In this document: piece by piece, positions 2,151 to 63,764 of the stretch
How positions within the stretch are numbered: position 1 is the first letter of the stretch
Layout of the letters: the number at the start of each line of letters is the position of its first letter
Assembly: GCA_020055645.1 (NCBI GenBank)
Contig: CM034546.1
Span: 72,478,001 to 72,542,000 of the forward strand
DNA from: Tomocerus qinae
Lineage: Eukaryota; Arthropoda; Collembola; Entomobryomorpha; Tomoceridae
Direction of reading: 5' to 3'
DNA: 64,000 bases
Notes under the pieces: generated by a model
The model's database searches: none
The model's input: the letters and a program-made list of their open reading frames with translations, nothing else
What the model was told of the DNA's origin: nothing
Program-made: the position numbers and the translations under genes

Positions 2151-5100
2151 CTGGAAATATCAAACATATTCATCGAGTTTCAGTTTTATCTGATACCATT
2201 TCCTGCTTGGGCCCTCCATCACCTATTTGAAAATTCCTAATCGGTACTATTAATTGCTATATATAATGAAAAATTATTACCTGGGCTGAAAGGAGTGACA
2301 CCGAAAGCTCCTTCCTTGCCATACACAGTGTTTGTTGCCGCCCCGATTTCCGACCACGCTAAATTGGTAATATTTGTTTGTATTTAGATAAATAAATGTG
2401 CCGTAAATATTATTACTTTAAAGTTTTGCTTGATATTTCAACTTACCTCCCCAATTTATTGTTTGTGCTGGTAACCCCATCGAGTGTCTATAATGGGCAA
2501 GCGAGTCTAAAAACATATTTGCGGCTGCATGATTGCTTTGTCCAGGTGGGCCTAAAATGGCAGCTGCAGAAGAAAATAAGACGAAGTGCTCCAAATTCAT
2601 TTTCTTAGTCAAGTTGTGCAAATTCCATCCACCATTCACTTTGGCATTAAACACGGCTTGGAATTTTTCCCAGGTCTGATTTTCAAGCACTGAATCAGAT
2701 ATTAGACCCGCTGAATGAATTACTCCCCTTAATGGGGGCATTTCTGTTTTGACGATTTCAAAGAGTTCTTGGCATTGATTCCAGTTACCCACGTCAACTT
2801 GCCTAGCCAGAACCTGAACTCCTTGTGTACTTAACGATTTCAGGACTTTCTGTGTTTTTTCATTTGGAGCTGTTCTACCGACCAAAACTACATGTTCGGC
2901 TCCACATTTAACCATCCACTTTCCAACTTCTAAACCAATTCCACCTAATCCACCCGTCACTAAATATGTAGAGTTTTTGCTGAACAACAAATCATTACTA
3001 TAATGTTTTCCTAGACTTTCTTTTTTCTCAGGTGAAACTACAACTATTTTACCAATATGTTGGGCCTTCAAGAAATAATTTAAAGCTTCTTTAATTTCAG
3101 ACATTACAAATCTTGTAAATGGCAAAGGTTTCACTTCATTCCCAAGGAATTTTTCATTCATTTTCGCTATTAAATTTTTCATTTCATCATCCCCAACTGT
3201 CTCCAAATTTACAATTGTATATCTCACATCTGATCGAAGACTTTCTACTTCTTCTGGCTTCCAGATATTTACTTTTCCCATTTCAACAAATCTTGCATTA
3301 TATGCACAAACTTTTAATGAAGTTTCTTTAAACCCGGCACCCGTCAACGAATTTAAAACTAGATCCACTCCCCTACCATTTGTAATCTTTTGTATTTCAT
3401 CTCCGTATGTCAAATCACGGGAATGGAAAACATTTTCTATGCCTATCGCTCGAAGGTAAGCTCTTTTCCTCTTACTACCGGCAGTTGCAATGATTTTGGC
3501 CCCGATTTGTTCGGCTATTTGAATGGCGACTAATCCTACTCCTCCTGAAGCTACGTGAATTAAAATCGTTTCATTCAATTTCAATTTACCCACCTCGACT
3601 AAGCAATAATAGGCTGTGAGGTAGACGGAAGGCAAAGTAGAAGCCTCAGCGAAAGAAAATTGCTTGGGTTTGTGAAGAATGAGATCAGAAAGGACAATGA
3701 CGTGACTTGCCGCAGAACTCGAATTGGAAATTCCAAAAACCTCATCCCCAATTTTGTATTTCATGACTTTACTACCAACGCGAGACACAACTCCTGAAAA
3801 ATCTGTTCCTACAGCATCAAATAAAGTTTTAAACATATCTGGTTTAAGAATGACGAAAATGTCCCTAAAGTTCAATGCCGTCGCCCGTACTGAAACTTCA
3901 ACTTCATTTTCTTTTAAATTATTAACTTTCATGACTTTAAAAGTTACATCATTTATCTTTTTGGATTTAGGAATAACTATTTCGTAATTAGAACTAGGCA
4001 AGATCAAAGGAGCCGACATAGGAGGTAAAGGAGAACATCTAAATACAAACCGTTTGTTTTTTCTATAAGCTGTTAAATAATCAGCATCACTGTGCCACAA
4101 GTGAAAAAATATTTGTTTGCTCTCTGATATTGGGTCGATATTTTCGGGATCCAAATCAATTAGGCAACTGTTAAATAATGAAAATTCATTTTTACAGCTT
4201 TTAAAGATTCCCCAAATAGTTGCCTTGGACGGAATAACTCTGTTTTGATCTCCAATTAAGTAAACTCCACGAGTAGCAATTGTAATGTTTGTAGTGCTGG
4301 CAAAGGCGCAAATATTTTTGCACATATACAACATAGTTTTTGCCAAGTATTCTTGATCGTCAGTTTCATCTAAGCCTATTAGCAATATGTAACCTTTAAC
4401 ATCGTATTTAGTATTTAATGATACTTTCAAATTATTAATTTCCTGCTCGCTGCCGTAATCTAGAAAATGGTCAAATATTGTACTATCAATATGTTTGGTA
4501 TGATCACAATCGCCCACAAGTACAGCGGCGTCACCAGTAGTTTCAATAAAGACTTTTAATTGCTTAGCAACAGAAGAGTCATAACCTGAGAAGATTACCC
4601 ACCTTGGCGTTTTCTTGTCAGTGTCAACATCAGAAGTTCTAAGTGTATATACATGATTTTCGGGTGTTGCTCGTGCTACTATTACGCCGACCATCTCCTG
4701 TTCATTGGAAACATTTGTTGCACAAGTAAACCCATTTCTATGCATTATACCACGCCATGTTTTCTCGTCCACGCATGGATGATTTGGTCGTATATCATAA
4801 TCCTTAAAGCACCAATAACCTTCAAGACATCCAAATATCATATCGATATGTCTTAAAGGAGTTAACATTTCCATTAGTACAAAAACTCCCGATGGTGCTA
4901 AAAGCTGACGAACATTAATAATTGACGACTCTAAGTATTCTGTAGCGTGTATTACATTGGATGCCACAACTACATCGTAAAAATGTGGAGCAAATCCTTG
5001 CCGTTTAGGATCTTTTTCTATATTTAGCAGTTTGTAATCCACAGCTGAAATATGTTTGAATGTTTTCTCTGCTTCCGCCAAAAAATGTGGGGAAATATCA

Positions 5101-8100
5101 GTGAATGTATATCGGAATTGTATCCCTTGCTTTTGAAGACCATTGATGATTTCTTTGGATGTAGCAGCACTTCCGGCTCCTATTTCCAAAATTCTCACTA
5201 TGGAACCATCTCCCTTTGTTTGTGACAACAACACTTGCAAAGAAGCACTTAACCTAGTATTAGCTAATTTAGCGGCTACTACATCAGTGTATATAATTAA
5301 AGGGTCTATTTCGGTGTCTTCGCCAAAAAGTATATTGACTCCTGACACATTTCCACAAAGATGCTCGCTTAGTAAACCGCCACAATGTTCAGCAATATGT
5401 TTTTCTACAAATTCAAAATTTTCAATGGAATCCATTTTTTTCAAAGAAACATTTTTGAGTTCAATGACTTCGTTCTCTGGTAGAGGTTCCTTATGGACTA
5501 CCCACTCAGTAGTATGTTTGGAAGCACTGTTGAGCAAGTAGTCATTTTCTGCCAATATAGACAACCCTAATTTCACATACGACGCACGGTCGACGGGTAT
5601 TGTAAGCTGTGTCATTAATGCTTCTGTTGAAAATCTGTCCCCCAATTTTGGTTTCCAACCTAGCTTATAAAATGCTAGGATGAAGTAATAAGGAGTGAGG
5701 GCTGTTTGAGAAATCTCTAACCCTTCTGCCATAGCAGGATAAAATTTAGAGTATTCTTGCATAATTGGGTTCAAATCCTTTATCAGTTCTGAAGTTGTTG
5801 GAAGGTTCGATAAATTTACTCTGGAATGAAATGGAGCATCTCTGGATCTCCACACTTCGTGATTCATCCCTGGGAGTTTGTTTTTAATGCCAGTAATGAC
5901 ATTTAAAAACGAACCAATAGATGTCTTTACTAGTTTGACGCCTGACATAGAAGCCAGTAAATCCCCTTTGTCGTCATATAAATTGATATTTCCACCTTCT
6001 TTAGCAGCATGAACAATAAAATGTTCAGTAGTTGTTTTTGATACCATAACAAACTTTGAAATTCCTACAGGAAGATGCAAATCGGATTTATTTGTGTCTA
6101 TCGATATGGCAAAACATTGAAGCATTGCATCTATTACAATTGGATGATAAACATATTCATTCATGTTACCCGCCTGGATTGGTATTGGAACTTTAGCCAA
6201 AAGTTCATTATCCCCCTCCCATACTGTGGCAATACTTTGAAACGTTTCACCAAAATTGATGCCTACCTGAGCTGTCAACTTGTAAAATTCTTCGGGAGAT
6301 TTGGCTTCCAATTCAGACTGCATTTCAGTAATTCGTCTTTTATTGATTATCTTACTTTCCCTGACACAATTGGAACTATTTACTGAAACATTAGCGCTGG
6401 CAAATTGTTTCCATCCTTTTTCATCATTATATCCATTAGCATGTTTGTATACGAATACTCTAATTAAAAATGAATGATTCTCCTCCACTTCAGATGCCAC
6501 TATTTGAATTTTATGATCCTCATTGTTGTCTATTTCCATTGGAGCCTCTACGACAAAATCTTCTACAAGTAAATAAGTATTCTCAATTTTTGCGACATTG
6601 AAAACTTCTTTTCCTGTAGCTAAAATTAGCTCTAAAAATCCTGCTCCTGGAAATACAATTACGTTTGCAACTTGATGATCTCTTAAGTAGGAGAAATCTT
6701 GTAAATCCAAAGAGTTCTGGAAAACTTGTTCCTTAACTACGGCCAAAGAAACTTTTCTCCCAAGCAATGGGTGTAATGGCTTACAAAGCTGTTCAGATGT
6801 TGATTCAATCCAAAATTTCTGCCGTTGGAATGGATAATGAGGCAAGTCAACCTTTACTCGGGGATAACACGATTCCATCTTTTCCCAATCCACATCTACA
6901 CCATTTACATACAATTTAGATAAACTGTCAAATATAGTCAACCAATTGTCCTCATTCTTTCGTATGGACGGAAGCCATAGAGATGTCTGCTGTTCTTCAA
7001 CAGAAGAATTGTTCAAACCCAGAGCCAATAAAATGGGATGTGCTCCTATCTCAATAAAAATATTGCACCCTTCTTGATGTGCAAATTTAATTCCTTTCGT
7101 GAAATCAACAGAATAACGTGCATGATTTAACCAATATTTTGCTGTCATGTCTTCTAAGCCCAGGATCTTCCCGACAGATCCAGATATATATTGACATGAC
7201 GGAAATTTATAATTAATTTTTCCTGCAGCTTTACTGAATTCATCTAACATATCTTCCATAGCCCGAGAATGAAATGCATGGCTGGCTGCGAGCATTTGGT
7301 GTTTTATATTATTAGCTGTGCATAATTCTGAAAATTTTTTTAAAGATAGTAGCTCTCCAGCAACCACAATTTCGTCCGAACAATTGACGACAGCAACATC
7401 AATCCATTTATCTGTGGAAGTGAATAGCTCAATAAGTTCTTCCACTTTTTTCTTTGAAGCTCTAACTGCCAACATTCCTCCATTGGGTAACCTATTGATC
7501 AGTCGACTTCTTTCTGATAATAAAAGTAGAGCCTCTTCAAGTGTCATTACCCCAGATGCTACAGAAGCAGCGAATTCTCCGACGCTGTGCCCTAACACAC
7601 AGTCAGGCTTAATTCCAAAGCTTTCCCACAATTTAAATAAACTGTACTCAATGCAAAAAATTGATATTTGACTATAGATTGTATCGTCAATGTTATAGTT
7701 TGTACCCAACCCCCAAAGTATATCCACAATGGATATACCAAGATTATTTGAAACTATCTCGTTACACAAATTAAAAGCATTCGCAAATACCGGACTTGTT
7801 TCATACAATACCTTACCCATTCCTAAATATTGGGAACCTTGCCCTGTGAATAGAAAAGTAAATTTTGGTTTTTCGACTAAAACCGGCTCAGAAGGAAATA
7901 TTGGTTGTCCTAACTTATTTTTCAAGTCTTTCATATCTTTACAAATGGTAGTGAAACGATATTTTAAATGAGACCGTCCGGTATTAGCAGTAAAGCAAAT
8001 GTTTTCAATCCCTGTTGATGCATTCTGACTACAAAAAGACGCATAACTAGAAACTAAATCTTTTAAGGCGTTTTCAGATTTAGCAGAGAGTGTCAACATG

Positions 8101-11100
8101 TGGCATGGCCTTTCTTTTTTGTGGTCTATTGTAATGGCATTTTTAAAGACTTTTGGCGGTTCTTCCAAAATAACGTGAACATTTGTTCCACTAATACCAA
8201 AAGAACTTATTCCAGCCATTCGTTTTCTTTTATTATTTTTGGGCCATGGAATAGGATTTGTAGGAATTAAGGCCGGAAGTGAATCCAAATTAATATTTGG
8301 ATTTACATTATCCAAATTTCTATGGATTGGGATAATTTCATTTTCCATGGCCAGAATGACTTTTATAATGCCTGCCAATCCCGCTGCTGATTCCGTATGG
8401 CCAGTATTTGTTTTAACTGAACCAATAATAATCGGCTTTTCTCTTTGGGCTTTATATCCCTCTGAAATAGCAGCAAACTCAATGGGATCCCCAATAGGAG
8501 TTCCTGTCCCATGAGCCTCGATGTAATCAACCTCTTCTGGATTTACTCCCGATACTTTCAAAGCGTCCCGAATTGCAATTTCTTGACAATATTTACTCGG
8601 AGTTCCAAAACTGGAAGTAGTTCCTTCGTTACTAATACCAGATCCTCGAATTATCGACAGAATTCTGTCTCCATCTCTAACTGCATCGGAATATCGTTTG
8701 AGTACAACAACAGCAATTCCTTCTCCACGAGCAAATCCATCGGCCTTTTCGTCGAACGTCTTACAATGACCATCTTTAGCCAGAATGGGGACATCGCAGT
8801 GTGGGAAATGGGCAACTAGCAAATTGGCACCGGTAACGAGGGTCAAATCCGTTTCTCTTTTCCTTAAACTGTCACATGCCAAATGCAGACTGACCATTGA
8901 GGAAGAACATCCGGACTCAGTGGCCACATTTGGTCCGTTTAGTCCAAGAAAATACGAGACGCGTGCTGCAGTGGCGCAGAAAGCATTTCCAAGAATGACA
9001 TGATGAAAATCTCGTCCTCTGTTTGTATTTTCGTTCACTAACCGTTCGTATTCTTGTGTCCATACGCCTGAAAATACGCCCGTGTTACTTCCTTTCAATT
9101 TCGCGGGATCAATTGAGGCGTTTTCCAAAGCCTCCCAAGCTACCTCGACCATCAATCTTTGCTGGGGATCCATAAACGCGGCTTCCCTGGGACTAATCCC
9201 AAAAAACTTTGCGTCGAATTCGTCAATTGGACACTTTAAAAATCCCGCCTTAATAGAAGTATAGCGCGGATCTTCGCTGAAGCGTTGGGGAAGACGTTCC
9301 ATTGGAATTGAGCTTATTCCATCCGATCCTGTCTCCAACAACTCCCAAAATTCGTTGATATTATTTGCTCCAGGAAATCGGCAGCTTTGACCAATAATTG
9401 CAATTGATTCTTTAATGTCATTATGCCGTTTTTTGTTAATTTGTTCATTGTAATTTATTTTTTTCAGATTCCGGGTATCAAGGTTTTCAATGTTAATCTA
9501 ATAGTACAAAACCATTCATTGAATATAAAAATGTTTAATTGATTTATGAATAATCTTTATTCATTTGCAATCAGTAAGACTTAGTACTAATAATATATAT
9601 TATACTGTAAAATGAAATATCTGTTACCTCTAGTTCATTAAAACATGGGAAGACGTCGTTTGTGAATATATCTAACCAAAATCTCAAATAAGGCTGAAAA
9701 TATAATTAATTTCGTTTTAGTAAGTCGCGTATTTTGATTTTTATAAATTGAAATTAAATCAACTCTTTTCTTGAACATTAGTATATTCTTACGCAGCATT
9801 TTTCTTCATTTATATCGTTTAGTAGAAGCCAAGGTTTGATATCTACCAAGTTCAATACTTTAGCTGCACCAGTCGCCAACCTTTTCATACAATTGTAACA
9901 ATTACAATTTAGGGCCATAAAAATGTCAGTGAGGATAAGATCCTATGACTTATTAGCATCATAATCATAGTGCTGTAAACGCAGGTACCTTATTAATATT
10001 AAAAATGTATGCATGAATTTAATAAACAATTTAATAATTAGTCATTAAATACTAAAATATAAGATTTTGGCTAGTATATTTCGTAAAATTAATCAACTAG
10101 TCAACTAAAGTCGAAGTTGCCAAAAATTTTCTGTTCTACCAATGAAATATCAATTACAAATAAAAAGTAATCGGCGAACATCACAGCCATACTATACATT
10201 GAGTTTTTGTCGTGGTTGAGCTCCTAGACTTTGTAAACTATCTCTCTTAATTCAGATATGGTTTTTTAAATTTATTTAAGATAAAAGAAAGTATATACAT
10301 ACAGTTCCGAGTTGCATCCGTTTGGGATTCTCGCCACAATATCCGATCTAGCTGTTTTAATATTTGATCCAAGTTGATTAATATATTCCCAGTTGGTGGC
10401 CAAGTTTTCATCTGTTTGAAATTGAAAAAGTTTTATGGTAACTGTCTGCGAATTTTGTGTCATGAAAAATAAAACACAATATAATGACTATATCGGAATA
10501 AAATTGGCAGAGTAGGAGCCAGAACATTACTTCAGGAAGGAATCGCTGATCTACTATACCTTTGTAAAAAATTAAATCATTTTAGAGAAACTATTCCAGG
10601 AGTTTTTCCTTTTCAAGTAAAAATTTTGCTAGAAGGTCTTTTTGGACTCCCTTGCAATCATTTCTCATATCAAATGGTACTTGCCTAGAGTTTCTATGAT
10701 ATTTATATTGAAAACCATTTTTGTTGTCTAAAAATAATAAGAATTTTACCATATGAAGTTACGTCAATTGTAGATAGCATATTTATGTAGACTTTATAAG
10801 AAGGGTCAGCTACTAGTAGCGTAACGTCATTGGCAGTGTCCACAATAGCAAATGAACTCTCCAAATCAAAGAGTTCGTCACAATTCTTGACAACCTGAAA
10901 AATATTTAGTGAGCAGCATTAAAATTATGACAATGAAGGCAGGAAATTTAAGAATGTGAAACAATAATTTTGAGTTGGTCAATATATACTGCAGCCAATT
11001 AATTGTAATGTTAATAATTAATAATAAACATTTTGCCATTTAGTTTCTTATTTCTATCTAATGCATAAAGGCTTAACAGAGGTTTACAAAAAATGTGGCT

Positions 11101-11877
11101 TACAGAAGAGAATCAACATAAATCAATCCGCCGATCATCATTTATTACTCTAAAGATACTGTCTGAAAAAACTCTAGATATAAATTCCTCTTTCATGTTG
11201 GCGACTCTATTTTAGATTTAGTGTTTACCGTATTAAATGGACCAGGATTCTTAATAGTTTATAAATTCTCAATATTCTGAATAATAATTCTTAATTATTT
11301 GACATTTTCATGAAAAATTTTATAATTTGTTAGTGCGCTTAATGTTTGCATTTTTAATTACGCACTAATTACAATTACATGTCTTTTAGATAGTAAAATA
11401 ATATGTATCTACGAACTATATAGTATGCCCACTCATATCCACTTACAATCAAATGAGGATTAAGAAGAATGCATTTTTGATACATAGTTAAGCTCCAAAT
11501 AAACATTCTTGCTTGATCCAGGGGTGACAATTCAATCGGTTTTTCAAACTCCGTTTGCAAGTTTAGGACGACATCAAAGACATCCGACAACACAATACTG
11601 TTGAATTGAAAAGAAGGAAAATCACTTTTTTGAGCTACTAGTTTTTGTAAATACTTAAAGCAAAGTTTCTGCAACAATTACTTACACCTGACACTTGTTG
11701 TCACTAAAATTCAATTTGGAAATATTTCTTACCGAAGAGCCTGTTTCATATTTTCAGATATGAGCACAACGATTTTGGCAGTTGTGACAACTCGCCGAAG
11801 AGACTTGGCCAAGACGAGGGCTTGTATACAAGTTTCCTCGTTGTAGGCCACTGTCACCCAGGCAAAATCAGATGCAA
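403..11877 (-). CDS. Glycogenin-like domain fused to a reducing type I polyketide synthase with terminal thioester reductase
   Basis: Nine exons were placed from GT-AG signals: 11733-11877, 11447-11597, 10750-10894, 10303-10411, about 9793-9918 (its 5' edge is uncertain), 9628-9693, 2447-9497, 2281-2358 and 403-2150. Phases agree at every junction except the one between 10303 and about 9918, which I could not close. Exons 1-6 encode a GT8 glycogenin-like domain; the 7-kb exon begins with the end of a linker and then KS. Order after the GT8 part is KS, AT, DH, C-methyltransferase, ER, KR, ACP and a terminal reductase. The product would be an iterative megasynthase of roughly 3,200 residues, making a methylated, reduced polyketide released as aldehyde or alcohol. 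The first coding exon upstream of 11877 was not found; that exon starts with two bases of a split codon, though an open frame runs on to 11992. KS-to-reductase assignment is secure; the fusion is inferred from phase and homology. Confidence 0.85.
2281..6800 (-). other. PKS dehydratase, C-methyltransferase, enoylreductase and ketoreductase domains
   Basis: DH starts at LHPLLGRKV near 6775, with RDHQVANVIVFPGAG giving the active His (the family HxxxGxxxxP has Asn for Gly here) and a later VIDAMLQ Asp motif. The SAM-binding motif LEIGAGSAATS lies near 5190. ER spans about 3970-3090 with TALNFRDI and the NADPH motif HVASGGVGLVAIQIA. KR starts with YLVTGGLGGIG near 2965; its FSSAAAILG Ser is present, but the position normally occupied by the catalytic Tyr reads His (GQSNHAAAN, near 2531). 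The KR end crosses a phase-1 intron into exon 2281-2358, giving NWGAWSEIGAATNT. Residues are read directly; activity is inference. Confidence 0.88.
6880..9497 (-). other. PKS ketosynthase and acyltransferase domains
   Basis: A linker, starting INIENLDTRN at 9497, leads into ESIAIIGQSCRFPGA, the usual KS start. The KS catalytic Cys lies in ESGCSSSMVSLHLAC (codon 8907-8909); the two His are in EAHGTGTPIGDP and NTGHTESAAG. KS closes at SSFGISGTNVHVILEE. The AT starts at FLFTGQGSQYLGMG near 7860; its nucleophile is the Ser of GHSVGEF. The HAFH motif (AASHAFHSRAM) is the one usually associated with malonyl-CoA rather than methylmalonyl-CoA. Methyl branches would therefore come from the internal methyltransferase. 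All catalytic residues I can identify are present. Confidence 0.9.
9628..11877 (-). other. GT8 glycogenin-like (probable pseudo-glycosyltransferase) domain at the N-terminus of the PKS
   Basis: Exon 11733-11877 encodes FAWVTVAYNEETCIQALVLA followed by KSLRRVVTTAKIVVLI, which aligns with the glycogenin N-terminus (FVTL...GALVLG.SLR...T.KLVVL). Exon 11447-11597 has VFDVV, then FIWSLTMYQKCILLNPHLI, matching glycogenin's [21 protein letters not shown]. Exon 10750-10894 has NCDELFDLE, matching the conserved V-D-E-L-F-D. The split codon between 10750 and 10411 gives SYGDEN, aligning with SFDGGDQG. Exon 9793-9918 has GAAKVLNLVDIKPW, matching GASAKVVHFLGRVKPW, and exon 9628-9693 has FWLDIFTNDVFP, matching LWWNIFTTNVLP. 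The DxD metal motif reads N-P-H, and the metal-binding His before the KPW motif is Asn. Family comparison is from memory, so residue equivalences are inference. Sugar transfer looks unlikely; a structural, docking or regulatory role is a guess. Confidence 0.82.
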
Positions 11878-12027
11878 CTGGAAAACAATAAAGAAAATTA
11901 AAAAATATATACCTAAAATTACATAGATATAAATATACACTAAGTTGGCATTTCGATAGGGGAATTAAAAATTGACTAATACAGTAGGTCAATAATTATT
12001 ATAGGATAAATCGTATTAATCTTAATT

Positions 12028-12152
12028 GTACCGAATTGGACTGAATTGTACCAAACTGGACTAAATTGGACCCAATTGGACTGAATTGGACCGAATTGGA
12101 CTGAATTGGACCGAATTGGACTGAATTGGGCCGAATTGGACTAAATTGGACA
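12028..12152. repeat. 20-bp tandem repeat
   Basis: Direct tandem copies of a unit reading roughly TTGGACTGAATTGGACCGAA, itself two related 10-mers. The copies degenerate at the left edge. There are about six copies. The array lies upstream of the GT8-PKS gene. Confidence 0.85.
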
Positions 12153-15100
12153 TAATACTGAAGAAAAAGGACTTTTAATCAAAAAATGGTAAAAACCGAA
12201 AAAACATCACGCTTCGCGAGAAAATGTTGCTGGCTAATATTTTTTGCTGTGTCTCCTTGATCAAAAAGATGCCTGAGTAACAGTGTTTATCAATATCCAT
12301 GTAATTTACGGCTTCACCGGCATGAAGCATCTGGAAATAATTCACGGCATACCGATTTTATACTCTGAGACTAAGCCACACACGGCTGATATCTTGTTAA
12401 TGCAAGAAGTGGACGAAATATTAAACTATTCAGTAATTTTTGGGATTTGAATTACTGACCACAATTTTTTGGATATTATCCAAATAAATTCCTTTTTCGT
12501 TAAAAATAAGCTTACCATTTCGGACAAAATTCATCAAGGTTTTATAGTGGTTTGTGTATTAGATTATTTGGATTTATTATGTCCATTTTTAATCCTGTGA
12601 TTATCTTACGCCATTATACGTATCATAAGATTTAGATATTGATATTTTTTGATTTATTAGAAACCTATAGGCACGTTTATTGAGTTTTTAAGGTGTATGT
12701 TATTACTGTCCAACCCCAATGCCTACATAAAATTATTTCTTCCTATGTCGCAGGTATATAACTATCTATGCCATGGATGATGCGGCTTTTGGTTGCAACG
12801 CACTTGCGCGTATACAATTCATATTTCATAAAATAAGGAAGTCAAATATGAGTGAACATTAGCTTATTTCGAAATTAAACAATGTTAACATGGCTAATTA
12901 TTCAGCAATAGTATTGGGGGAAGATGCATGGGGAAATTTTACTTTGATATTAGCTTCAAAACCCTTACTTTTCCAAATGTACATTATAGTGGTAAATTTC
13001 TTATCGAAAAAATTGGTTTTCAATTATGACATGACCATGCGTCACGCACAGTAAATAAATTATGCTTGGATTATTTATCAATCAAATTTCCTTCTCCCTA
13101 GTACATTGTACATTATAACTCCTATTTAAAAAATTAACGATTATTTTCTTCATTTTTTAAAATGCCAGTTTCAAAATTTATGATGCATTCTAAAATATTA
13201 AATATTTCGTTGAAGTTTCTATGGATGACAATATTACAATGGTTGGCTTAATTACTTTAAATTGATGGATTTTATTTGGAAGATGCATGGCAACTTTTTG
13301 TTGCAAGCCGCTTCCGAATGTCTGAGTAAATTAAACGGAGTATTGATGGAATACATGGTTATACATTTGTTAATGCAAAAATATTTACCTGGCATGCTGA
13401 AGTTTTCTTCAGACGGATTAAAAATCCAAATGGTGTCAAGTATTTAAAATGACTTCTTTTGAATGCAAAATATCACTTGAATAAGATTTTCTCAGTTGGA
13501 GAAACTGAACTGGGTTTAACCAAGAGGATACTTATGCTTTTATACACTTTTGGACTTTATTTATAGATAAATATTTTATGCATAAATTCGAGTGGAAAAA
13601 ACAGATCCTAGCTACTACTTCCAGTAAATGTGATAACCCATTGGACACTATCTATAATGACGCAGAAAAGTAAAAACGTGTGAACTACTTTTAAAACAAT
13701 AAATGATTAAATAGTAGCTTTGTCCTTAAACAAATAGAGCAGGTATTTGGTACTTACTTGAATTAATTCTGACTTGACTTAGGTAGTCAAAAGTAAATTA
13801 AAAATCTCTATATTATAAGCACAGAAGAGATAGAAAGCAATAAATTTACCAATCTATATACCTAGGCATATTATATTATACTAGTGAACCCAGCTAAGGG
13901 GCGAACCTGGCACTCAAGAGAAATTAAGCAGGCCAGAAGGCCACCCATCACAGTAATAAAAACAATTCCGGATCAAATGGAAAAATTTCTAAACCAAAAT
14001 AATAATTGTATTTCGTATAGTGTCCAATACAGGGAATAATAAAAATTTTTCTCTATTTTTAATAAACACTACAGAATGTTCCCCTTTAAAATCAGAAAAA
14101 TATGATTCCGGGATTTTGGAAAACGGATTGTCTTCTTTAGCTAATTATTTCTAATCAATCACCAATAATCATCTTATATTCTGATGTTATAATAATATGA
14201 AGCAACTCATTTCGTTGGTTTAGAGGGAGGGGGCATGCGTATTTTGCTTTCGTGCTTTCAAGGAACGTGCATATATTACGTTTATAGTTGAAGGGAGGAG
14301 GCGATGTCCAAAAGAGTTACAGCTAGCACTTGCGCTACACTTGGGAGAGGGGGTTTTACGTTACACGTAATAATATATGAAGGTATCTTAGGCTCTTCTA
14401 CCAAGACATAGATAGTCAGGTATTAGTGCGATTATATTATAGAATTCGGTATAATATGTATGTCTGGTAGGGAGAGCCTAAATACGCAAGCGCTTATGCT
14501 ATGAATATTACATGAAACAATGAACTACACTCTGTGTTAACATATTTCAAATAGCATGTATAGATTTCGAAATTAAAGCAAATATTTTTACACGGAAATC
14601 TTTTGGAAATGAATAGTAGCGCTGGTAGCCTAGTAATAAATAATAATAAAGATGATCTATAAATAATATTACAATGCCATTTTTATATTGGACATTAATC
14701 GTGACTATTGTATTGTAGTACTTAGTATTTAAATGAGCAAATTTTTTTGTTTTAGCTCATTTACTACTTAATTACATAATAATATTATCAATAATATTTT
14801 CAACAAGCAAAACAGTAGTAATAACTTTTTCTCCTTTTTGCCAATAAAAATCAGACCTCTATACAAAGGTAACGCCAATCAGTGCTTTTAAGTATTAGTC
14901 GGAATTAATCTTTAATTGGTGTAAATGAGGTGTAATTTTATTATGTTTATTGAGTTTCTCATCAATTTCTAATCCGATATTTGTATTCGTTGGTCGAATA
15001 AAATATACCCACGTCAATATTTTGCACAAGTCTTAATTGCCTATTCTATGCTGTGTCTGCGGCTCTGACCTTCAACTTAAGAAGCACTCATTGACGCGTC

Positions 15101-17411
15101 AGCATCATAGAAGTTGTAAGATTGCAATTTCAGTTCAACATTAGCAATAAATTCATTAACTGATTAATCCTTACAAGTAAACTAATGCAAATAATTCGTT
15201 GTTCAGTGGATTGTATAAAGATAGAAGTTTATTTATGGTCTCCTTTTTCTACTATTGGCGTCACATTATATCATACTTTTCCTCAGTTATCACCGCAACT
15301 TCGGGAATCCTGACGTTGGTTTATTTTAATTGCATGAAAACCAAATAAAAGGGTTATAGGAAGGCAGAAACTCATAAACAAAATATAATTAAAAATATTT
15401 ACTCAGTTGATGTTAACTTTACAATTAATGTGAGGCTTCTGTCATTAAACATTTTATGTGTTGAAAATTTCTCATAGATAACATGAGAATAGCCGTGAAC
15501 ACTGATCTACTAATATACTCCTATATATTATTTTCTTATTAGTCACTCGTATAAATAATGGTATAGCAAGTAGCAAAATTATTTTGTTAGTTGAAGAAAA
15601 ATCTTGGCAAACTCCAGATATTTCAATATTATAGTTTATAGATTTTCAACATTCTTACACTTAGGTCAAATAATTCATTTCGAACCTGTATTGAATCAGA
15701 TTGGGCTAGTTTTTCGCTGATTCATGGTGTCCTGCAATGAACCAGGGAAAAACGAAATATAACAAAACGCATTTCCAAGCAACATAGCCCACAGTACCAT
15801 AAAATAATAGTAAATATAAATGGTGCAGAATTATTTATCTCCCTATTAAAACGAATGTATGGCTAATACAAATTTTAAACGTTTGAGTTCATAATTATTT
15901 CCAATATAACAAATTATAATTGAGAATGATATAGCTATACGCATCAAGAGAACATAATATTATTCAGGTCCAAATAATGTACCAAGAATCAAAATAGTGC
16001 TTATAATAGATTAAAGAGAATCAATAGAGTTGCTTTCAAACAGCTTTGATAATTATTCGACATGGCCTTCTCTTGTAATAAGGTAAGAATGTTGGAAAAC
16101 CATAAAGTAGTTTCAGTATTGCGTGCATTGTTACAACTAACTACAATTAATATGAATCCTGTATTTGTAACAATAATAGTGAATACGGAAAAGTCTATAC
16201 TACAGAAATCTGACACATAAGCTTACATAATAGAATAGAAGTTGGTTAATGGTAATAGTATACTAAGTAAAGGAGATATTTGAACTACAACGAAAAACAA
16301 TATCCCATAAGTACCTAATAAATAGCTTTACCTTGTAATTCAAACCATATCACAACTTTGAACTTGAACCATAAAAATATATCTACCAGGTTTCAGAAGA
16401 GTTGTTTTATGTTTTACCTGTCTATTAAGAGCTTTATTACCTAAGTTCCTAACCATATCAACTGGAAATACCCATAGACCAGTGAACTACATTAGTAAGG
16501 TCTGCTTCATAGGTTTACACTACTAAAATGTTTTATTATTTCAGAGTCGACATCAATGCTTTTGCATCACCAAGAATTTCCACAGTTGTAAATAACTAAA
16601 TACATAGCAGTCGTGTTATAAACGCATTTATATGTGATCCGTGTGAAATAGTAAAATATTCAATCTCAACCCAAGTTTTATACATGCTGACATTAAAGAC
16701 ACGGAAAGGCTAAAGGTTTGCGGTAATTATGATTCAATTGTATTCAATTGTTTCAATAAAATAATAAATTTAGCCTTAGTAGCCAAACGCTTCTGTATTA
16801 TTTGTATAAATCTAAGGCACTATGGTATGGAGAGTTAAAACATAAAAGGACGTTATTTATATGCGTCCTAGATTTCCGATACTCTAGTCTGAAATAAATA
16901 AAAATGGTTATCTTTATAACACAACTAGTTCCACTCTAGTGACTTTCCCCAAGCCTGAGAATTTGAATGTAAAAATATTCCGATCCTTTGTTATTTAAGG
17001 TAGCATAGCATTTTGTACATTTTCCTGTTTAAATCAAAGTAAACCATAATTATTACATAATTACTATGCTTCCACTTTCCAGTGACAGAAATTTATGCCA
17101 GACAAAATAAACTGTGAAGATTGAATTTAGTTTTTATTTTTATTGCACAATAGTAAACATTTACCACACCATAAACACTATATTATAACATTTATAGGAA
17201 TAGGAACGTATAATTTGTAATAGCAAACTAACTACACATATATTTTATGTTGATAGGTAGGAAGGTACATATTATTATTTAGGTAACACATTGATATCTT
17301 CATCACACATGACACAGGAATATTTTATTATGGAATTGGAACATTTTGAGAAATCATTCGGTCCAACAACCAAAATTCATTACACTAGAGTTTGAAGTCT
17401 TACTCGTAACA
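12153..17411. other. Gene-poor region upstream of the PKS and downstream of the acidic repeat gene
   Basis: Only short chance frames are present on both strands. It must contain the promoter and any unseen first exon of the minus-strand PKS, and perhaps the end of the 3' UTR of the gene that stops at 18074. A stretch near 12310-12385 resembles the end of the MITE at 33052-33636 (shared ACGGCAT...TTTATACTCT). A short open piece near 13340-13447 looks protein-like in one frame, but a stop cuts it and I do not recognise it. Confidence 0.5.
13881..13970 (-). repeat. Dispersed repeat copy 1 (possible Helitron-type 3' end)
   Basis: The sequence starting CTAGTGAACCCAGCTAAGG at 13881 matches, in inverted orientation, the segment 56664-56744, with about 49 of the first 54 bases the same. 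Read on the minus strand both copies end ...GGGTTCACTAG followed by T. A CTAG end before T resembles the Helitron 3' end rule. The upstream hairpin is weak (CCAG/CTGG in this copy), so the family call is tentative. Confidence 0.55.
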
Positions 17412-17530
17412 TGAACAAAATCCATTGAAAAATATTATCTTACCTCCTATAAACAAAATTCATTGAAAAACATTATCTTACCTTCTATAAACAAAATTCA
17501 TTGAAAAATATTATCTTACCTTCTATAAAA
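17412..17530. repeat. 40-bp tandem repeat, three copies
   Basis: Three near-identical copies of a unit containing ACAAAATTCATTGAAAAA and TATTATCTTACCTTCTAT. The array lies beyond the stop of the acidic repeat gene, perhaps in its 3' UTR. Confidence 0.8.
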
Positions 17531-18073
17531 ATCAAAAGAACATTATAAACTACATACTGACCTCTAACATTTAAAATAAACTACAATTAGCACATTTATA
17601 AGATTTGTCACAAACATTTTCTTACACATCTAAAGATTGATATAGCTTTATAGTTGACACGAAACCACATTTAATTTTTCAGAATCACATAACACATAAC
17701 TACTCTTCGATCAAAAAACATTTCGATAAGTATGAAGAATCAAAATCATACTAAGACAAAAAGGTTATTCGAAAAAGCTAAGAAACTCTAATATGAAAGC
17801 TAAGATTGAATATTCTGAAGTACAAAAACTGTAATTCTTCGTGCTGCTTAAAACTGCTTAAAAGGTGATTACTTTTAAACGCTTAAAATCATAGTAGTGG
17901 GAAATCCTCCCCAAGCCTTCCCTTCCGTTAAAATAAAAATACCATGTAATAATCTTTACAAATCTATTGATCTTATAGTAAACATCTAAATACACATAAA
18001 AAGTTAGAGTACTGATTTTTTGGCTGATATTTCTCTAGTAAGATCTTTCTGGAATTTTGATCATCCTGGGAGC

Positions 18074-21000
18074 TCAAGGACCAGCATCTTCCTCCTCGTC
18101 CTCCTAGACAAATAAAATAGAATTAATGAAGGTAAGCAAAATTGGTAATTATTATTAAACTCAGCAAATAATTTAATAAATAAACAAGGATATACCTCAG
18201 TTTCCTTCACTGCATGAGCTCCAGATCCAGATGCTTCATCATTGACCTTGGCACTATTGCCATCAGGGATCTGTAAAAGTAGATTATTATATAGATAATT
18301 TGTACCATCTACAATACTCATAATATTTTATTTACAATCCAAAATAGTAAAATAACGCTTATAAATATAGTTAAAAGTAAAAATATAAATATCATTTACA
18401 GAAATTAACGTAAGTATATTAAATATTATGTAGCTGGCTGTCTGTTAAATTTTTACTCACCGAGTTAGCAGAGTTAGTCATCGTATTCTCACTCGAATCG
18501 TTTTGATCGTCATAAGAATTATTACACACTGGTTGATTTAAATAGGTAGGACCATTTAGATAATTGATTTTAGCAGTATTAGACAGATGTGGAAGTAAAT
18601 CAAGACTAGTATTATAGAGGCAGTAGATCAACAATTTTTTATTACCTAATGGACCTTCATTCTGGATATTCTCTTGATGGGGTTTATTTTGAGTAAACCA
18701 TCTGCAAGTATTAAGGAGTTGTTCCACCGTGTCGGGTGGGAGTGGATGGTCTTGGACAATAAGAGCGGATTCAGCTCTAACAGAGTTACCGATGCTTGTG
18801 ACTTGAACCGGAAGAGGTATGAGTGCCTTATTTTGGAGGTTGGAGTTAGGCGGTGCAAGGGTGATTTTCAACTTTTCTTCAGGCCCCTCTCCTAAGATAA
18901 CGGAGGTCCGCATCATTGAAGGATGGTCCATTTGAACACAAGGAGTTCCCATTGTACTGATTTCTTGATTAGGAATCGTGGCCACATAATAAAATTGAAC
19001 GCTTTCAGGACTTGTATTTTTGTCCATTATTTTCATTCCAATGGATTCGGAACTTACGAGTCGTAATTTTCCAGGTGTTCCGGTATTTTCATCCTTGGGC
19101 TCCATCGTAGCTTCTGCCACGGCATACAAAACGACAAAATCGTTTTCCAATTGTGGTTTTTCGTGGTTCATTGACTGGTAGTCTTCATTTGTGACGAAAT
19201 TTATAACTTCAGGTTTTATTGCACACGAGAATGATGTCCCGGGACAAATAAAATTAACATTTGACGTATAATCATGGTGTACGATTCTTTTAATAAGGGT
19301 ATCCGACAATGTAGGGCTTGAAAGGTCAGTTGAGGAAGAACAACTTTTTGTTTCGTTGGTGTCCTTATCTTCCGATGATGGACAACGAGAATTCAAAGAT
19401 GGTTGACTGACTTCACAGCTGTTTGAGGTTCCATAAGAGATTTTCTTTTCGGAGCCCATTTTCTCGAGGCTGCTACAACTTTCCACGCTGCTATAACTTT
19501 TCGATGTCGATGCTTTTGATGACGATGATTGGCAATTATTTTTGGGAAAGATTTCCAAGGTAGATGGCATCGAGACAGTCTCAATCTCCGGATAATAACC
19601 ATTCACAACATTCGTTCTCGAGGAATTAAGTGTCATCAGGGCGAGTTCACTCCTCCTTCTTAAAGGTTCTAGGCGACTGGCACGCTTGTAGCGGTTTTCT
19701 CTGCTGACTAACGTGCTGAAGTAACTGGAAAAATCAAAATTATAAGCCGCACGATTATTTTTTTCTAGTTCGGCTTCCTTAGGTGGATTATTACTATGCA
19801 GGTTGCTTCTATCACCGGATAATGAAACATCAGACCCCTCTTTAGTCTCTTTTTGCTGCTGTCCCTCCGATCTTGAATCTCTGTGTATATTTTGCAACAA
19901 TAATGCTCTCCTTTCAGCCCTCTGTCTTTCTCGATTCAGTCGCGCAAGATAATTCCTAAGGAAACCAGAGAGAAGTCAAATCTATAAATTAAATTTTCCT
20001 GGGAAGGATCGCAGGTTTTATCTCTATTAAGCGTTATAATATTAAAGTACCTTGAAGTTTCAGGCACGTGGTCTTCCACTGCTTCTTCCTCCACATCCGT
20101 CGTGGGAGTATCGACCATCTTTAATGGTTCAGGAACATCGTTAGGGTTATGAGTAACAACTGCATTACTATCCAGCATATTTAGGGACACCTCAATACAA
20201 TCCCTAAGTTCGGGTAAATGTTCGATTCCTTCGATTCCTTGGTTTTCTAAAATGTCAAATGTAGGAAAGAGTCTGGATTTTGCCCACGTTTCGGTAACTT
20301 CATTAATGATTGAATTGATATTCCATTTTTTTCTTGAAGGCCCCTTTGCCATTTGATCATCTGTTTTGAAAACTTCTCTATTTTCAGAAGAGCTGTCTTC
20401 TTGTAAAATTGCTTTTAATCCTTCAATGATTTGTTCTGAATCTTCATTTTCCCCTTCTTCTTCGGCCAATTCAGCTAACGATAATGCAACTTCTACTTCA
20501 GTCATTTCTTCATATCTTGGTTTCTCTACACCTTCGGTTATCAATTGACTTTCCATAGCATTTTCATTCGTTTCAGGTGGTTCCATATCAGGAGAAATGT
20601 CTGCATCTCGACTAACAATAATTATAATATTATCGGATATAAATTCATCCGTTGTGTCAACAGCCATTTCAGAATTATGTCTCTCCGAACTCTCGATCTG
20701 TTTTGATTTCAAATCCTGCTCTAAAATTTCGGGAAAATTTTCACTTCCTAATTCTGGGAGGATGCGATTATTCCCTTGTGGAATTTTATTGTTACTTCCG
20801 CTTAAATGATTTACTATTCCAGTAGTTTCTTCCATGATTTTTTTCTTGTCGACCACTGGGTGATATCCCTGCTGGGCATAGAACAACTTATTTAATTTAG
20901 TGTCTCTAATTTTCTTTTTTGACTTTTCTTTCTCACAAGATTCATTCCCAATTAGTACTTGGCGTGCATTCTTAACTACATAAATTCCGTTTGTTTCCGC

Positions 21001-24000
21001 TGCCTCGGTTTCCTTGGGATTTTTCTCTATGAATAGGGCAGACTTATTAAACTCATCTACATTAGTGATTTCATCATTGATACTTACGTTTTTCTGAGAG
21101 AATGAAAAGTTGGCTCCTCCACGAGTATTTTCTGAAATGTTAGCACCGGTTTCGATTTCTACACTTTGGTGATTGTCGGTTAATGATTTGTCTTCCACCG
21201 TCGGCTTTGTTTTATCCGCAGTATTCGCTTCGTCAGGCTGATTTTGGTGATACGCATCGTTCAGTTTTGATAATCCTGCATCGCCAGCTTCAAAAAATTC
21301 TTTATTTTCCAATTCTGAACGAACTAAAGTTTGACTATGTACAAATTCATGCACGTCGTCCAAATTAGTCTCTTCCGAAATCGGTTTTCCGATCAGAGCT
21401 TTCAATTGAAATAAGTATAAATCGTCATCCGAATCAGAGTCCTCCTCATTTGGTTGTATATCATCGCCAATATCTCCAGTTGGTTCCTCAACTGTATTCC
21501 CTTCTTCATTGATAGTTTCAGGTACTATTTTTGAATCTACACCTTCAGAACTGCTTTCATTTTCCTTCAAATGGCTATCTGAAATATTTGAACTACCTCC
21601 GCTTTCAGAACTCCTTTCAGATTCGTCACACACACGAGAGACACTTTCCAGATATTCTAATTCATCAGGTTGAATGAAATAAACATTTCCGTTTCTAAAT
21701 ATGCATCTCATATCGTCAGTAGGATAGTAATGGAAGGTATCGTCCTCGGCTTCATCGTTCGTTGTTGTCGCATATTGATTGATTTCTGCAAAACCTGGAT
21801 TGCCAGTAGCATTAAATTCTTCATTTTCCATTCGTTCAAATGCGGCGTTCCATTCCCAATCTTCAATGGAACTTTCTTCCTCTACACATCTGCTACTGCT
21901 TGGCATGTTGTTTTCTAATTCTGAACAAGCAGAAGATCCTTGGTTTGTACTTTCACCTGAACCTTCGTCAGTAATTTCAACAGTTTCTCCGAGATTAAAA
22001 TCATTTCCTGAAAATATTTCACCGTTCTCCAAATTAATATCATCGGTAACTCTTTCAACAACTGCATTTTCCAAATATTTTTGTTGATCTTCAGTTTCCA
22101 GATTTTCAGTTTCATTTCCAACCATTTTTAAATTTGTTTCCGAAGAACTTTTTACCAAATCTGTTTCAAAATATTCATCTGTTTCCAAATATATACTTCT
22201 AATTGACAATTGGTCACTTTCATCTGGTATTTCGTTTCTAGTATCTACAATATCTTCGGTATCAAAATCTTTTTCGGACGTCATTTCGCCTTCTTTAAAG
22301 TCAATATCACTTTTCTTCGTTTCCAAAGAATCATTTGGCACCTTTGTTTCAGTAGAGACCTTTGTTTCGAAATTATCAGCAGACTCTTGATAATTGTTGG
22401 AAACCTCCTCTCTGGTATCAACAGTTTCTACGGCATACAAATCTTTTTCGGAAGATATTTCGCCCTCCTTCAAGGAAATATCACTTTCCTCCGTTTCCAA
22501 AGAATCATTTGGCAATTTTGTTTCAGAAACGACATTTGTTTCGAAATTATCAGCAAACTCTTTATAATTTTCGGAAACCTCCTCTCTGGTATCAACAGCT
22601 TCTACGGCATCAAAATCTTTTTCGGGAGATATTTCGCCCTCCTTCAAGGAAATATCACTTTCCTCCGTTTCCAAAGAATCATTTGGCAATTTTGTTTCAG
22701 AAACGAAATTAGTTTCGAAATTATCAGCAAACGCTTGATAATTGTTGGAAACCTCCTCTCTGGTATCAACAGTTTCTACGGCATACAAATCTTTTTCGGA
22801 AGATATTTCGCCCTCCTTAAAGGACATATCACTTTCCTCCGTTTCCAAAGAATCATTTGGCAATTTTGTTTCAGAAACGACATTTGTTTCGAAATTATCA
22901 GCAAACTCTTTATAATTTTCGGAAACCTCCTCTCTGGTATCAACAGCTTCTACGGCATCAAAATCTTTTTCGGGAGATATTTCGCCCTCCTTCAAGGACA
23001 TATCACTTTCCTCCGCTTCCAAAGAACCATTTGGCAATTTTGTTTCGAAAATATCCACAGACTCTCGGTAATTATCGGAAATCTCTCTGCTTTTAACAGT
23101 ATCTTGAACAAGGAAATCTTTTTCGGATGTCATTTCGTCTTCATTAAAGTCAATATCACTTTTCTCCGTTTCCAGAGTAGCATTTTGCAATTTGGTTTTG
23201 AAAATATCCGCAGACTCTTGATAATTTTCGGAAACCTCCTCTCTTGTATCAACAGTTTCTACGGCATCAAAATCTTTTTCGGAAAATATGTCGCCCTCCT
23301 TCAAGGACATATCTCTTTCCTCCGTTTCCAAAGAACCATTTGACAATTTTGTTTCAGAAGCGACCTTTGTTTCGAATTTATCCGCAGACTCTTGAAAATT
23401 TTCGAAAGCCGCTTCTCTGATTTCAACAGTTTGTCCGGCGCCAAAAACTGTATCGGACACTATTTCGCCCTCCTTCAAGGACATATAACTTTCCTCCGTT
23501 TCCAAAGAACCATTTGGCAATTTTGTTTCGAAAACATTCACAGACTCTCGGTAATTATCGGAAATCTCTCTGCTTTTTACAGTATCTTGAGAATGAAAAT
23601 CTTTTTCGCATGTTCTTTCGTTTTCCTTTAAGTCAATATCACTTTTCTCCGTTTCCGAAGAACCATTTTGCAATTTTGTTTCCGAATTTGTTTCGAAAAT
23701 ATCCGCAGACTCTTGATAATTTTCGGAAACCTCCTTTCTGGTTTCAATGGTTTCTCTGGCATCAATATCTTTATCGGACGTCATTTCGCCTTTATCATAG
23801 ATAGTATCACATACATCGGGGTTTACTCCCGTTTCCAAAGAATCATTTGGCAATTTCGTTTCGAAAGTTTCCTTTGTATCGAAATTATCCGCAGGCTCTT
23901 GATAATTTTCAGAAACCTCCTCTCTAGTTTTAACAGTATCTTTGGCATCAAAATAATTTTCGGATGTTATTTTGTCTTCCTTAAAGTCAATATCACATTC

Positions 24001-27000
24001 ATCGGTGTTTACGCCCGTTTCTAACGATTCATTTGACCATTTTGTTTCAGAAGCAACATTTTTTCCCAAATTTCCAACAGACTTTTGATAATTTTCGGAA
24101 ACCACCTCTCGAATATCAACAACTTCTCCGGTATCAAAATCTTTTTCGGGAGATATTTCGGCTTCATTCAAAGACATATCACTTTCCTCCGTTTCCAAAT
24201 GACCATTTGACAATTTTGTTTCAGAAACCACATTTGTTTCCGAATTCCCAGCAGGCAGTTTATCATTTTCTGAAACGACCTCTCCAGTTTCAACAGTTTC
24301 TCCGCCACAAAAATCTTTTCCGGACGGTATTTGGCCTTCCTTTAAAAACATGTCACTTTCTTCAGTTTCCAAATGACCATTTGACAATTTTGTTTCAGAA
24401 ACGACATTTGCTTCCGAATTCCCAGCAGGCAGTTTATCATTTTCGGAAACGACCTCTCCAGTTTCAACATTTTCTCCGCCACAAAAATCTTTTCCGGACG
24501 GTATTTGGTCTTCCTTTAAAAACATGTCACTTTCCTCCGTTTCCAAATGACCATTTGACAATTTTATTTCAGAAACATTTGTTTCCGAATTCCCAGCAGG
24601 AAGTTTATTATTTTCGGAAACGACTTCTCCAGTTTCAACAGTTTCTCCGCCACAAAAAACTTTCCCGGACTGTATTTGGCCTTCGTTTAAAAACATGTCA
24701 CTTTCTTCCGTTTCCAAATGACCATTTGACAATTTTGTTTCAGAAATGACCTTTGTTTCCCAATTCCTGACAGAATTTTGATAATTTTCGGAAACTTTTC
24801 CTCTGGTTTCATCAGTTTCTCCGGTATCAAAATTTTTTTCTGACGTTATTCCGCCTTCATTCAAGCCAATATCAATATCATCCGTTTCCAAATAACCATT
24901 TGACAATTTTGTTTTAGAAGCTACTTTTGTTTCTAAATTGTCAATAGACACTTGATAACTTTCGGAAGCCTCTTCTCTGTTTCCAACAGTTTCTCCAGCA
25001 TCAAAACCTTTTTCGGGCGTTATTTCGTCTTCCTTACAGTCAGTATCACTTTCATCGAGGTTTACGGCCGAAGTACTATTAGCCAATTTTATTTCATCAA
25101 CGACATTTGTTTCCAAATTCCCAGCAGGCAGTTGATAATTTTCGAAAACCTTATCTCTGGTTTCAACAGTTTCTCCGGCATCAAAAACTTTTTGGGACAT
25201 TATTTCGTCTTCCTTAAAGTCAGTATCACATGCATCAAGGTTTACGCCCGTTTTCAAAGCACTGTTAGGCAATTTTGTTTCAGAAACGACCTTAGTTTCA
25301 GAATTTCCAACAGACTTATGACAATTTTTGGAAACCTCCTCCCTGGTTTTATCAGTTTCTTCGACACCCAAATCTTCTTTGGAGGTTATTCCATCTCCCT
25401 TCAAATCAATGCCTTTTTCACCGTGTTTTAAATCCGTTTCTAAACCCCTGTTTGGTAACTTTGTTGTAGAAACGACCTTTGTTTCCGAATTTCCTGCACA
25501 CTTTTGACGATTTTGGAAAACCTCCTCCCTGGTTTTGAAAGTTTCTTTGATGTCGAAATCATTTTCAGATAATATTTCTCCGTCTTCCAGACCATCTATA
25601 TACTTATCAGCAGCTGTAATTTTAATTGATTTTGATTTCATCAAGTCTTTCGGTATTGAAGCTCCATGAATATTTAAATTATTTATTTCCGAATTATTCG
25701 TCAGCATTTCTGTCACAGACGATCTTACTATCCAAACTGAATCATCATCTTCTCCATCTAAAGTATCCTCGCGGGTGTCACCAATATCTTCGAGATCCTC
25801 TTGTGTTTCAGACAATATTTCGCCCTCTTCCATATCAGTATCAGCTTCATCGATGTTTAAATTATTTTCGGAGGGACTACTGGGCAACTGTGTTCCAAAA
25901 TCTGTATATATTGAAACTTGATCTCCTTCGGAAAATTCTTCAATATTTTCTTCCCAGTCCTCTTGAGCTTCAATGGAAAATATTTCGCCGTCTTCCAAAT
26001 TAAAATTAATTTCATCGACTTCTAAATCCGCTTCTGAAAGATTCTTTGGCACATATCTTTTTAAATCTATGTCAGCTGAAAATTGGCAATTTTCATCTGA
26101 AATTTGTTCACTGGTAGTGGTAACAGTATCATCATCTGAATTGAAATCTCTTTCGGATAATACTTCGCCTTCCTCCAAATCAAAATCAGTCATTTGTCCA
26201 TCAATAAATCCGCTTTTCTTTAGCTTTGATTCAGCCCCTGCTGTTATTGTTTGAATCTCAATTAGGTCAGTTTTTAATTTCGTTTCAGAATAATTCATGA
26301 CATTCTTTGTTTTTAACATGTCATCCGGGACATTTTCTTTGACGTTCAGTTTTTCATTTACAGGAATAAATGAACATGTTGGGGTAGCTAGATATGCCAT
26401 ACCAGCAAGAGCATTTTCAGATGTAACTTGAGAAATTTCTTCGAAATCTTCTTGTATGCTGGACGATATTTCTTCTTCAAAATCAGTGTCAACAATTTCA
26501 TCATTTCCTCCTTCCGTTACTGTTACATTTTCTACTTCTGTAATTGCTACTTCACTTTCTCCTTCCGTTACTCCAACTTCATTTTCTCTCTCCGTTACTA
26601 CAATTCTATTTTTTCTCTCCGTAACTGCCACTGCCTTTTCTCCTTCCGTTACTCCAATTTCATTTTCTCCTTCCGTTACTGTCACTTCATTTTCTCCTTC
26701 CGTTACTGTCACTTCATTTTGTACTTTCGATACTCCAACTTCATTTTCTCTCTCCGTTACTACAATTTCACTTTCTCTCTCCGTTACTACAATTTCATTT
26801 TCTCTCTCCGTTACTACAATTTCATTTTCTCCTTCCCTTACTATTATTTCATTTTCTCCTCCCATTACTGCCACTTCATTTTCTCCTCCCATTCCTACAA
26901 CTTCATTTTCTCCTTCCGTTACTGTCCCTTCATTTTCTCCTTCCGTTACTGTCCCTTCATTTTCTTCTTTCGTTACTCCAACTTCACTTTCCCTCTCCGT

Positions 27001-63746: not shown

Positions 63747-63764
63747 GTTTTTGGGCCCGGCTCG

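Follow-up and report, generated by a model that had tools for sequence, protein, structure and literature searches.

Type I polyketide synthases (PKSs) of arthropods, and their horizontal origin, are already known. In Folsomia candida, 30 of the 36 predicted biosynthetic clusters are given as type I PKS clusters, and most of the genes within them are also called horizontally transferred (PMC5490193). These acquired enzymes (PMC5490193; OXA62418.1, PMC10764717) are PKSs in an animal genome that are not of the fatty acid synthase (FAS)-like kind. The animal FAS-like PKSs (AFPKs) are also type I megasynthases in animals, and a few of those from arthropods are described as ending in a thioester reductase (R) domain (PMC10764717). 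The metazoan glycogenins GYG1 and GYG2 belong to glycosyltransferase family 8 (GT8), and a glycogenin or GT8 domain within a PKS was not found described in the open-licence PMC literature, covered mostly at the level of listings. One paper names both glycogenin and polyketide synthase, but, in the part available, for genes of different species (PMC12014239), and a fused glycosyltransferase domain described in another belongs to a squalene-hopene cyclase. Here we describe a locus of the collembolan Tomocerus qinae, in a window of 64,000 nucleotides (assembly GCA_020055645.1, contig CM034546.1, positions 72,478,001 to 72,542,000), in which a glycogenin-derived domain most likely lies in frame with a KS-AT-DH-MT-ER-KR-ACP-R gene and is part of it.

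We put the probability of a single minus-strand gene, running from about 12534 to 403 of the window in the order GT8-KS-AT-DH-MT-ER-KR-ACP-R and with a dead GT8 domain, at roughly 0.7. The model is built on the genomic sequence and homology, the exons being located by their flanks on the minus strand, to which all exon coordinates refer; splice sites are scored in bits on our own consensus profile.

One argument for a fusion comes from the exon that encodes the KS. This 7.05-kb exon (2447–9497) is free of introns and contains, by Pfam and motifs, a linker of ~30 residues followed by KS, AT, DH, MT, ER and most of KR. It is directly preceded on its 5' side by an in-frame stop (the TAG of its acceptor) and its first Met is residue 66, within the KS core, so that an upstream coding exon in phase 0 is needed. 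The last exon of the GT8 domain, exon 6 (9628–9693, PYLRFWLDIFTNDVFPCFNELE), is in phase 0 on both sides and joins the KS exon at 9497 across an intron of 130 bases. The remainder of the PKS follows after two introns near the end of KR, with a small exon (2281–2358, AWSEIGAATNTVYGKEGAFGVTPFSP) joined in the spliced model and a last exon (403–2150) containing, by Pfam and motifs, the end of KR, the ACP (DMGLDSL) and R, with the stop codon at 403–405.

Five more exons make up the rest of the GT8 domain. Exon 1 (11733–11877, ASDFAWVTVAYNEET...MKQALR), which ends in phase 2, is recognized by its GT-AG borders, phmmer, tblastn and codon score, and exon 2 (11447–11597, FIWSLTMYQKCILLNPHLI), which holds the position of the DxD motif, now NPH, by GT-AG borders, phmmer and tblastn. 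Exon 3 (10750–10894, VVKNCDELFDLE...) is placed by GT-AG borders, phmmer and codon score. The homology of exon 4 (10303–10411, ...SDIVARIPNGCNSEL), likened by eye to TDIRKHLPFIYN, is the weakest of the six, while exon 5 (9793–9880, LATGAAKVLNLVDIKPW) has a weak acceptor and an uncertain start, with alternatives that begin it at 9942 or add an exon at 10185–10223. All six exons have GT-AG borders, and their 234 codons form a stop-free chain that leads in phase to the KS exon at 9497. The candidate first exon (12516–12534), encoding MNFVRN and ending in phase 1, has the best donor (ATGGTAAGC, 9.37 bits) among six ATG-started candidates with a donor score of at least 4.5 in the searched region 11878–15500; it is inferred rather than transcript-based, and with it the predicted protein would have 3,199 residues. 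A tandem array with a 10/20-base unit (AATTGGACCG) occupies 12024–12151, in the presumed first intron.

Similarity between the N-terminal domain and glycogenin begins at the first strand of the catalytic domain and reaches its last helix. A phmmer search of the spliced peptide against the PDB retrieves glycogenin-2 with E=1.1e-16 and glycogenin-1 sequences with 4.1e-13 to 1.8e-11; glycogenins account for 19 of the 20 distinct sequences at E≤1, and another sugar transferase for the remaining one. The best stretches span query residues 2–137 at most, and in the four printed alignments only a weak second segment (0.2 to 2.5 bits) represents the C-terminal helix, which agrees with the alignment of FWLDIFTNDVFP to the last glycogenin helix (LWWNIFTTNVLP) proposed in an earlier sequence-only reading of this DNA. 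In a tblastn search of the window with rabbit glycogenin-1, exon 2 ranks first (E 0.008), followed by exon 1 (0.028) and exon 6 (0.76); the three are collinear with residues 55–107, 2–48 and 245–264 of the rabbit protein at 26%, 32% and 40% identity. Further matches have E≥1.7 and are scattered, and no second copy of glycogenin is among the matches listed. Global alignment of the spliced peptide with rabbit glycogenin-1 gives Z=14.6 against 500 shuffles, and Z=5.0 for the second half alone. The GT8 query searched against IMG/VR gave three pattern matches and no relatives.

Codon usage was scored as log-odds trained on the PKS exon versus the noncoding DNA of 12000–18000. The assigned frame scores highest in all six GT8 exons and is the sole open frame in five of them, exon 4 being open in two. 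The GT8 exons average 0.143 per codon and the PKS pieces, which are also the training data, 0.183, as against -0.167 (standard deviation 0.14, maximum 0.19) for 144 open noncoding pieces, drawn mostly from the background stretch itself; the score of exon 6 is weak and falls below zero (-0.07). When the unselected decay of a 234-codon glycogenin to 30% identity was simulated, 0 of 60 runs remained free of stops, with a mean of 12.6 stops. The data show that the GT8 reading frame has been kept open. An open frame alone is no proof of selection for the fold, since a mere leader must stay open too.

A further link to the animal gene is offered by an intron position. The last residue of GT8 exon 1 corresponds, without gaps, to glycogenin residue 48 in the tblastn and the four printed phmmer alignments, and the border is in phase 2. 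The human GYG1 variant c.143+3G>C is described as leading to skipping of exon 2 (PMC7463053), and its name implies that the last base of GYG1 exon 2 is base 143, in phase 2 of codon 48. Provided that the ungapped alignment is correct, the GYG1 border would be shared in position and phase, a point in favour of descent from a true animal glycogenin gene.

Several observations weigh against this model. The profile search named with the sequence-only reading as a possible refutation of its GT8 assignment went against it, as Pfam GT8 (PF01501) gave no match, with zero families at E≤10 and 1.7e-17 for the rabbit control; we read the miss as sequence divergence, because the single-sequence search clearly finds glycogenins. 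Exons 3, 4 and 5 are not among the tblastn matches listed for rabbit glycogenin-1 in the window, and both MAFFT and pairwise global alignment open a four-residue gap just before the border of exon 1, which places it at residue 52. Donors score below 4 bits in three of the six exons. At 9880 the acceptor reaches just 0.92 bits, a poor score that 57.8% of 294 noncoding AGs equal or exceed, and the one at 9497 is of middling quality, 16% of noncoding AGs scoring as high. When the ways of connecting exons 4 and 5 were enumerated, three-exon joins being subject to score thresholds, eight proved stop-free and phase-compatible; the one of the sequence-only reading (9880) ranks fifth by combined score and fourth by protein score; the top-ranked one inserts a 39-base exon at 10185–10223, and others begin exon 5 at 9942. 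The gene model also rests on the genomic sequence of one species. Separately, a 39-base micro-exon at 9950–9988, with a Tyr-x-Tyr that by eye resembles IYSYLPAFK and an acceptor of 2.7 bits, was weighed as a source of the missing Tyr region but rejected on account of its donor TAA|GTCATA, judged by eye to be far from consensus.

The missing tblastn matches of exons 3–5, the rank of the exon 4-to-5 join and the alignment-dependent intron match touch the middle of the domain and not the join between 9628 and 9497. The GT8 domain connects in frame by several possible routes, and the uncertainty of the model lies in the middle of this domain. The sequence-only reading had proposed six exons with glycogenin motifs in the right order, the last two joining the KS exon in phase without a stop, and these points are borne out by the GT-AG borders, the stop-free phases, phase 0 on both sides of 9628–9693 and glycogenin matches down to 1.1e-16. 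Its one-gene interpretation is the most likely one on phases, homology, codon usage and the need of the KS exon for an upstream exon.

Key residues for glycogenin activity are not retained in the GT8 domain. The glycogenin FMDADT aligns with LLNPHL, so that DxD becomes NPH and both aspartates are gone. His212 of glycogenin, which we take to be the metal-binding histidine, is replaced by Asn in both global alignments, where KVVHFLGQTKPW (KVVHF) is matched by KVLNLVDIKPW; WPDC is deleted and FNSG becomes NDVT in the global alignment. Mn2+ coordination is described as requiring the DxD motif, and the D102H substitution alone is reported to abolish autoglucosylation of human GYG1 in vitro (PMC5203857). 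The glucosylated tyrosine is given as Y195, and the tail that binds glycogen synthase as residues 300–332 of human glycogenin (PMC9188544). With the simplest splice model Tyr195 is aligned to a gap, and a Tyr is present in several of the eight alternative exon 4-5 joins, the join being uncertain, while the synthase-binding C-terminal tail is absent, as the GT8 domain is followed by the ~30-residue linker and the KS. The fusion differs from metazoan glycogenin, with which it shares homology and, in the HMMER and tblastn alignments, the exon border, in having neither DxD, metal histidine nor synthase-binding tail, in missing the priming-Tyr region in the simplest splice model, and in the attached PKS. 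To judge from these residues, the GT8 domain is probably catalytically dead and no longer works as an enzyme. The loss of DxD, the metal histidine and the tail makes glycogen docking, priming and sugar-linked starters unlikely, so that docking and sugar-linked starters, two of the roles envisaged by the sequence-only reading, find no backing here.

The PKS part contains, by Pfam and motifs, KS, AT, DH, MT, ER, KR, ACP and thioester reductase domains, which make a single reducing type I PKS module. The Cys-His-His residues of KS, GHSVG in AT, HAFHS, a SAM-type motif, DSL in ACP and YxxxK in R are all present; HAFHS is typical of malonyl specificity. The usual KR motif is NYAAAN, which contains the catalytic Tyr, and the usual DH motif is HxxxG. 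At this locus the active-site motif of KR (2537–2517, minus strand) reads SNHAAAN, with a His at the position of the catalytic Tyr, and the DH motif (6680–6648, minus strand) is HxxxN, not HxxxG. The reductive steps may be partly inactive.

Whole-query scores against the PDB, taken among the best 60 of 280 matches and with match lengths that differ, are 784 bits for mycocerosic acid synthase, 738 for CurL and 521 for lovastatin synthase, compared with 498 for the top fatty acid synthase, 434 for EcPKS1 and 374 for EcPKS2. By these last two scores, against 784 for a bacterial PKS, the locus would differ from the AFPKs, and the whole-query scores speak against grouping its KS in a clade with animal FAS. 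The KS-AT region is 44.4% identical over the full query length to a PKS from a Nostoc plasmid, the highest bacterial identity seen, and the first ten of the 1283 records in this plasmid search are by name cyanobacterial. A KS-AT scan of genome contigs gave 28 pattern matches in eight loci, all bacterial, the best being L001, 36% identical across the full query, and L002, 37% identical within residues 3–500, less close than the plasmid matches. By its scores in the PDB, plasmid and bacterial collections searched, the PKS looks bacterial in type. Scores nearer to bacterial PKSs than to animal FAS-like enzymes, together with the uninterrupted 7-kb exon, make horizontal transfer of the PKS likely. 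What separates the locus from bacterial and cyanobacterial type I PKSs is the presence of eukaryotic introns and of an N-terminal glycogenin relic. The Folsomia candida PKSs differ in that the available portions of their descriptions mention no GT8 or other sugar-transferase domain (PMC5490193, PMC10764717).

Two observations qualify the bacterial assignment. The non-bacterial Probable polyketide synthase 16 (9nju), which we assume to be an amoeba protein, scores 611 bits among the same best 60 matches, above the fatty acid synthases. In the plasmid collection the best-ranked matches reach only 31.7% identity for the MT-ER-KR part and 27.6% for the ACP-R part, less than for KS-AT. Judged on the PDB, plasmid and bacterial collections, a bacterial source of the PKS is likely at most. 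The term "animal PKS" used in the sequence-only reading is apt for the host but not for the sequence, which scores closest to bacterial PKSs in the collections searched.

For the origin of the gene we propose that a PKS of bacterial type, once in the genome, was joined by splicing to the 5' exons of a duplicated glycogenin gene. This gene would have given it a promoter, a start codon and splice sites. The GT8 domain would then have lost its glucosyltransferase activity and the glycogen-synthase tail but kept its reading frame, and most likely it would still fold, as a dimerising N-terminal cap atop the KS dimer. KS domains are dimers. Glycogenin is also described as a dimer (PMC9188544), and a dimeric cap would be the most natural role because both partners dimerise. 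From malonyl units the PKS would make a C-methylated chain, which the R domain would set free as an aldehyde or alcohol. An N-terminal scaffold role is plausible at somewhat less than even odds. The fuller scenario, in which a horizontally acquired PKS captured the glycogenin promoter, start and 5' exons and the pseudo-glycosyltransferase is now a working structural domain (dimeric cap or substrate gate), is more tentative still.

The main alternative to the scaffold role accepts the fused gene, and so overlaps with the gene model given above, but regards the GT8 part as a tolerated leader without a role, left over from promoter capture. The loss of the catalytic residues and a divergence beyond the reach of Pfam are in line with it, and a stop-free frame is expected here too, as the leader must stay in frame for the PKS to be expressed. 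On the other hand, the core motifs are recognizable and the similarity of the first half has been kept, neither of which a mere leader needs. We regard such a leader as possible, if on the unlikely side.

A different gene structure is conceivable, with a truncated pseudo-glycogenin upstream and a PKS transcript that starts inside it, for instance at ATG 9918 (MALNCNCYNCMKRLATGAAKVLN...), and keeps the tail of the GT8 domain only. The weak acceptor at 9880 is in its favour, and two further features tell against a single gene: the region 9498–12600, upstream of the KS exon, holds eight phase-0 exon candidates that start with ATG, so that a different first exon is possible, the most serious of them being ATG 9918, from which an open frame runs through 9793 in phase with 9628–9693 and the KS exon, and an AATAAA is present at 9561, within the last intron before the KS exon, in addition to other poly-A-like hexamers. 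Such hexamers are, however, common locally, with 11 in 9498–12600, and the donor at 10303 can be joined in phase to 9880 and, via small exons, to 9942. Exons 1–4, moreover, are coding-like and intact, yet would end without the last part of the domain. Two separate genes are improbable on this balance.

Continued activity of the GT8 domain, as a sugar transferase or sugar-binding domain that glycosylates the polyketide or a starter, could be argued from the retained reading frame, first strands and last helix, but it is very unlikely in view of the change of DxD to NPH, the Asn in place of the metal histidine, the deletion of WPDC and the change of FNSG to NDVT, the human enzyme being described as inactive in vitro with D102H alone (PMC5203857). 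An assembly artefact or chance exon-like matches, which might be suspected of one sequence from one genome, can be dismissed almost entirely, since tblastn ranks, phases, codon usage and intron position agree.

The surroundings of the gene contain repeats and long open frames. A Pfam scan of nine neighbouring open frames gave matches at E≤0.01 in three (reverse transcriptase, zinc fingers) and none in six, and Rfam at gathering thresholds found no match in the window. An open frame of 3085 codons at 19939–29193 (minus strand) overlaps tandem arrays with periods of 174, 306 and 348 bases, and the adjoining frames 18422–19975 and 29129–30628 have no Pfam match at E≤0.01. At 35016–35662 there is a tandem array of a 33-base unit (19.7 copies, 93% matches) that is open in several frames, and at 40641–43127 (plus strand) a single open frame of 829 codons, with no Pfam match at E≤0.01. 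The 1097-codon open frame at 60474–63764 (minus strand) contains endonuclease and reverse transcriptase domains and looks like a LINE-type element.

If the proposed reading is true, the T. qinae locus would show concretely how a bacterial-type biosynthetic gene can come to be expressed in a eukaryote, namely through splicing to the 5' exons of a housekeeping gene of its host. A pseudo-glycosyltransferase would then join the list of PKS domains, and the chimera offers a test case for dead enzymes as scaffolds.

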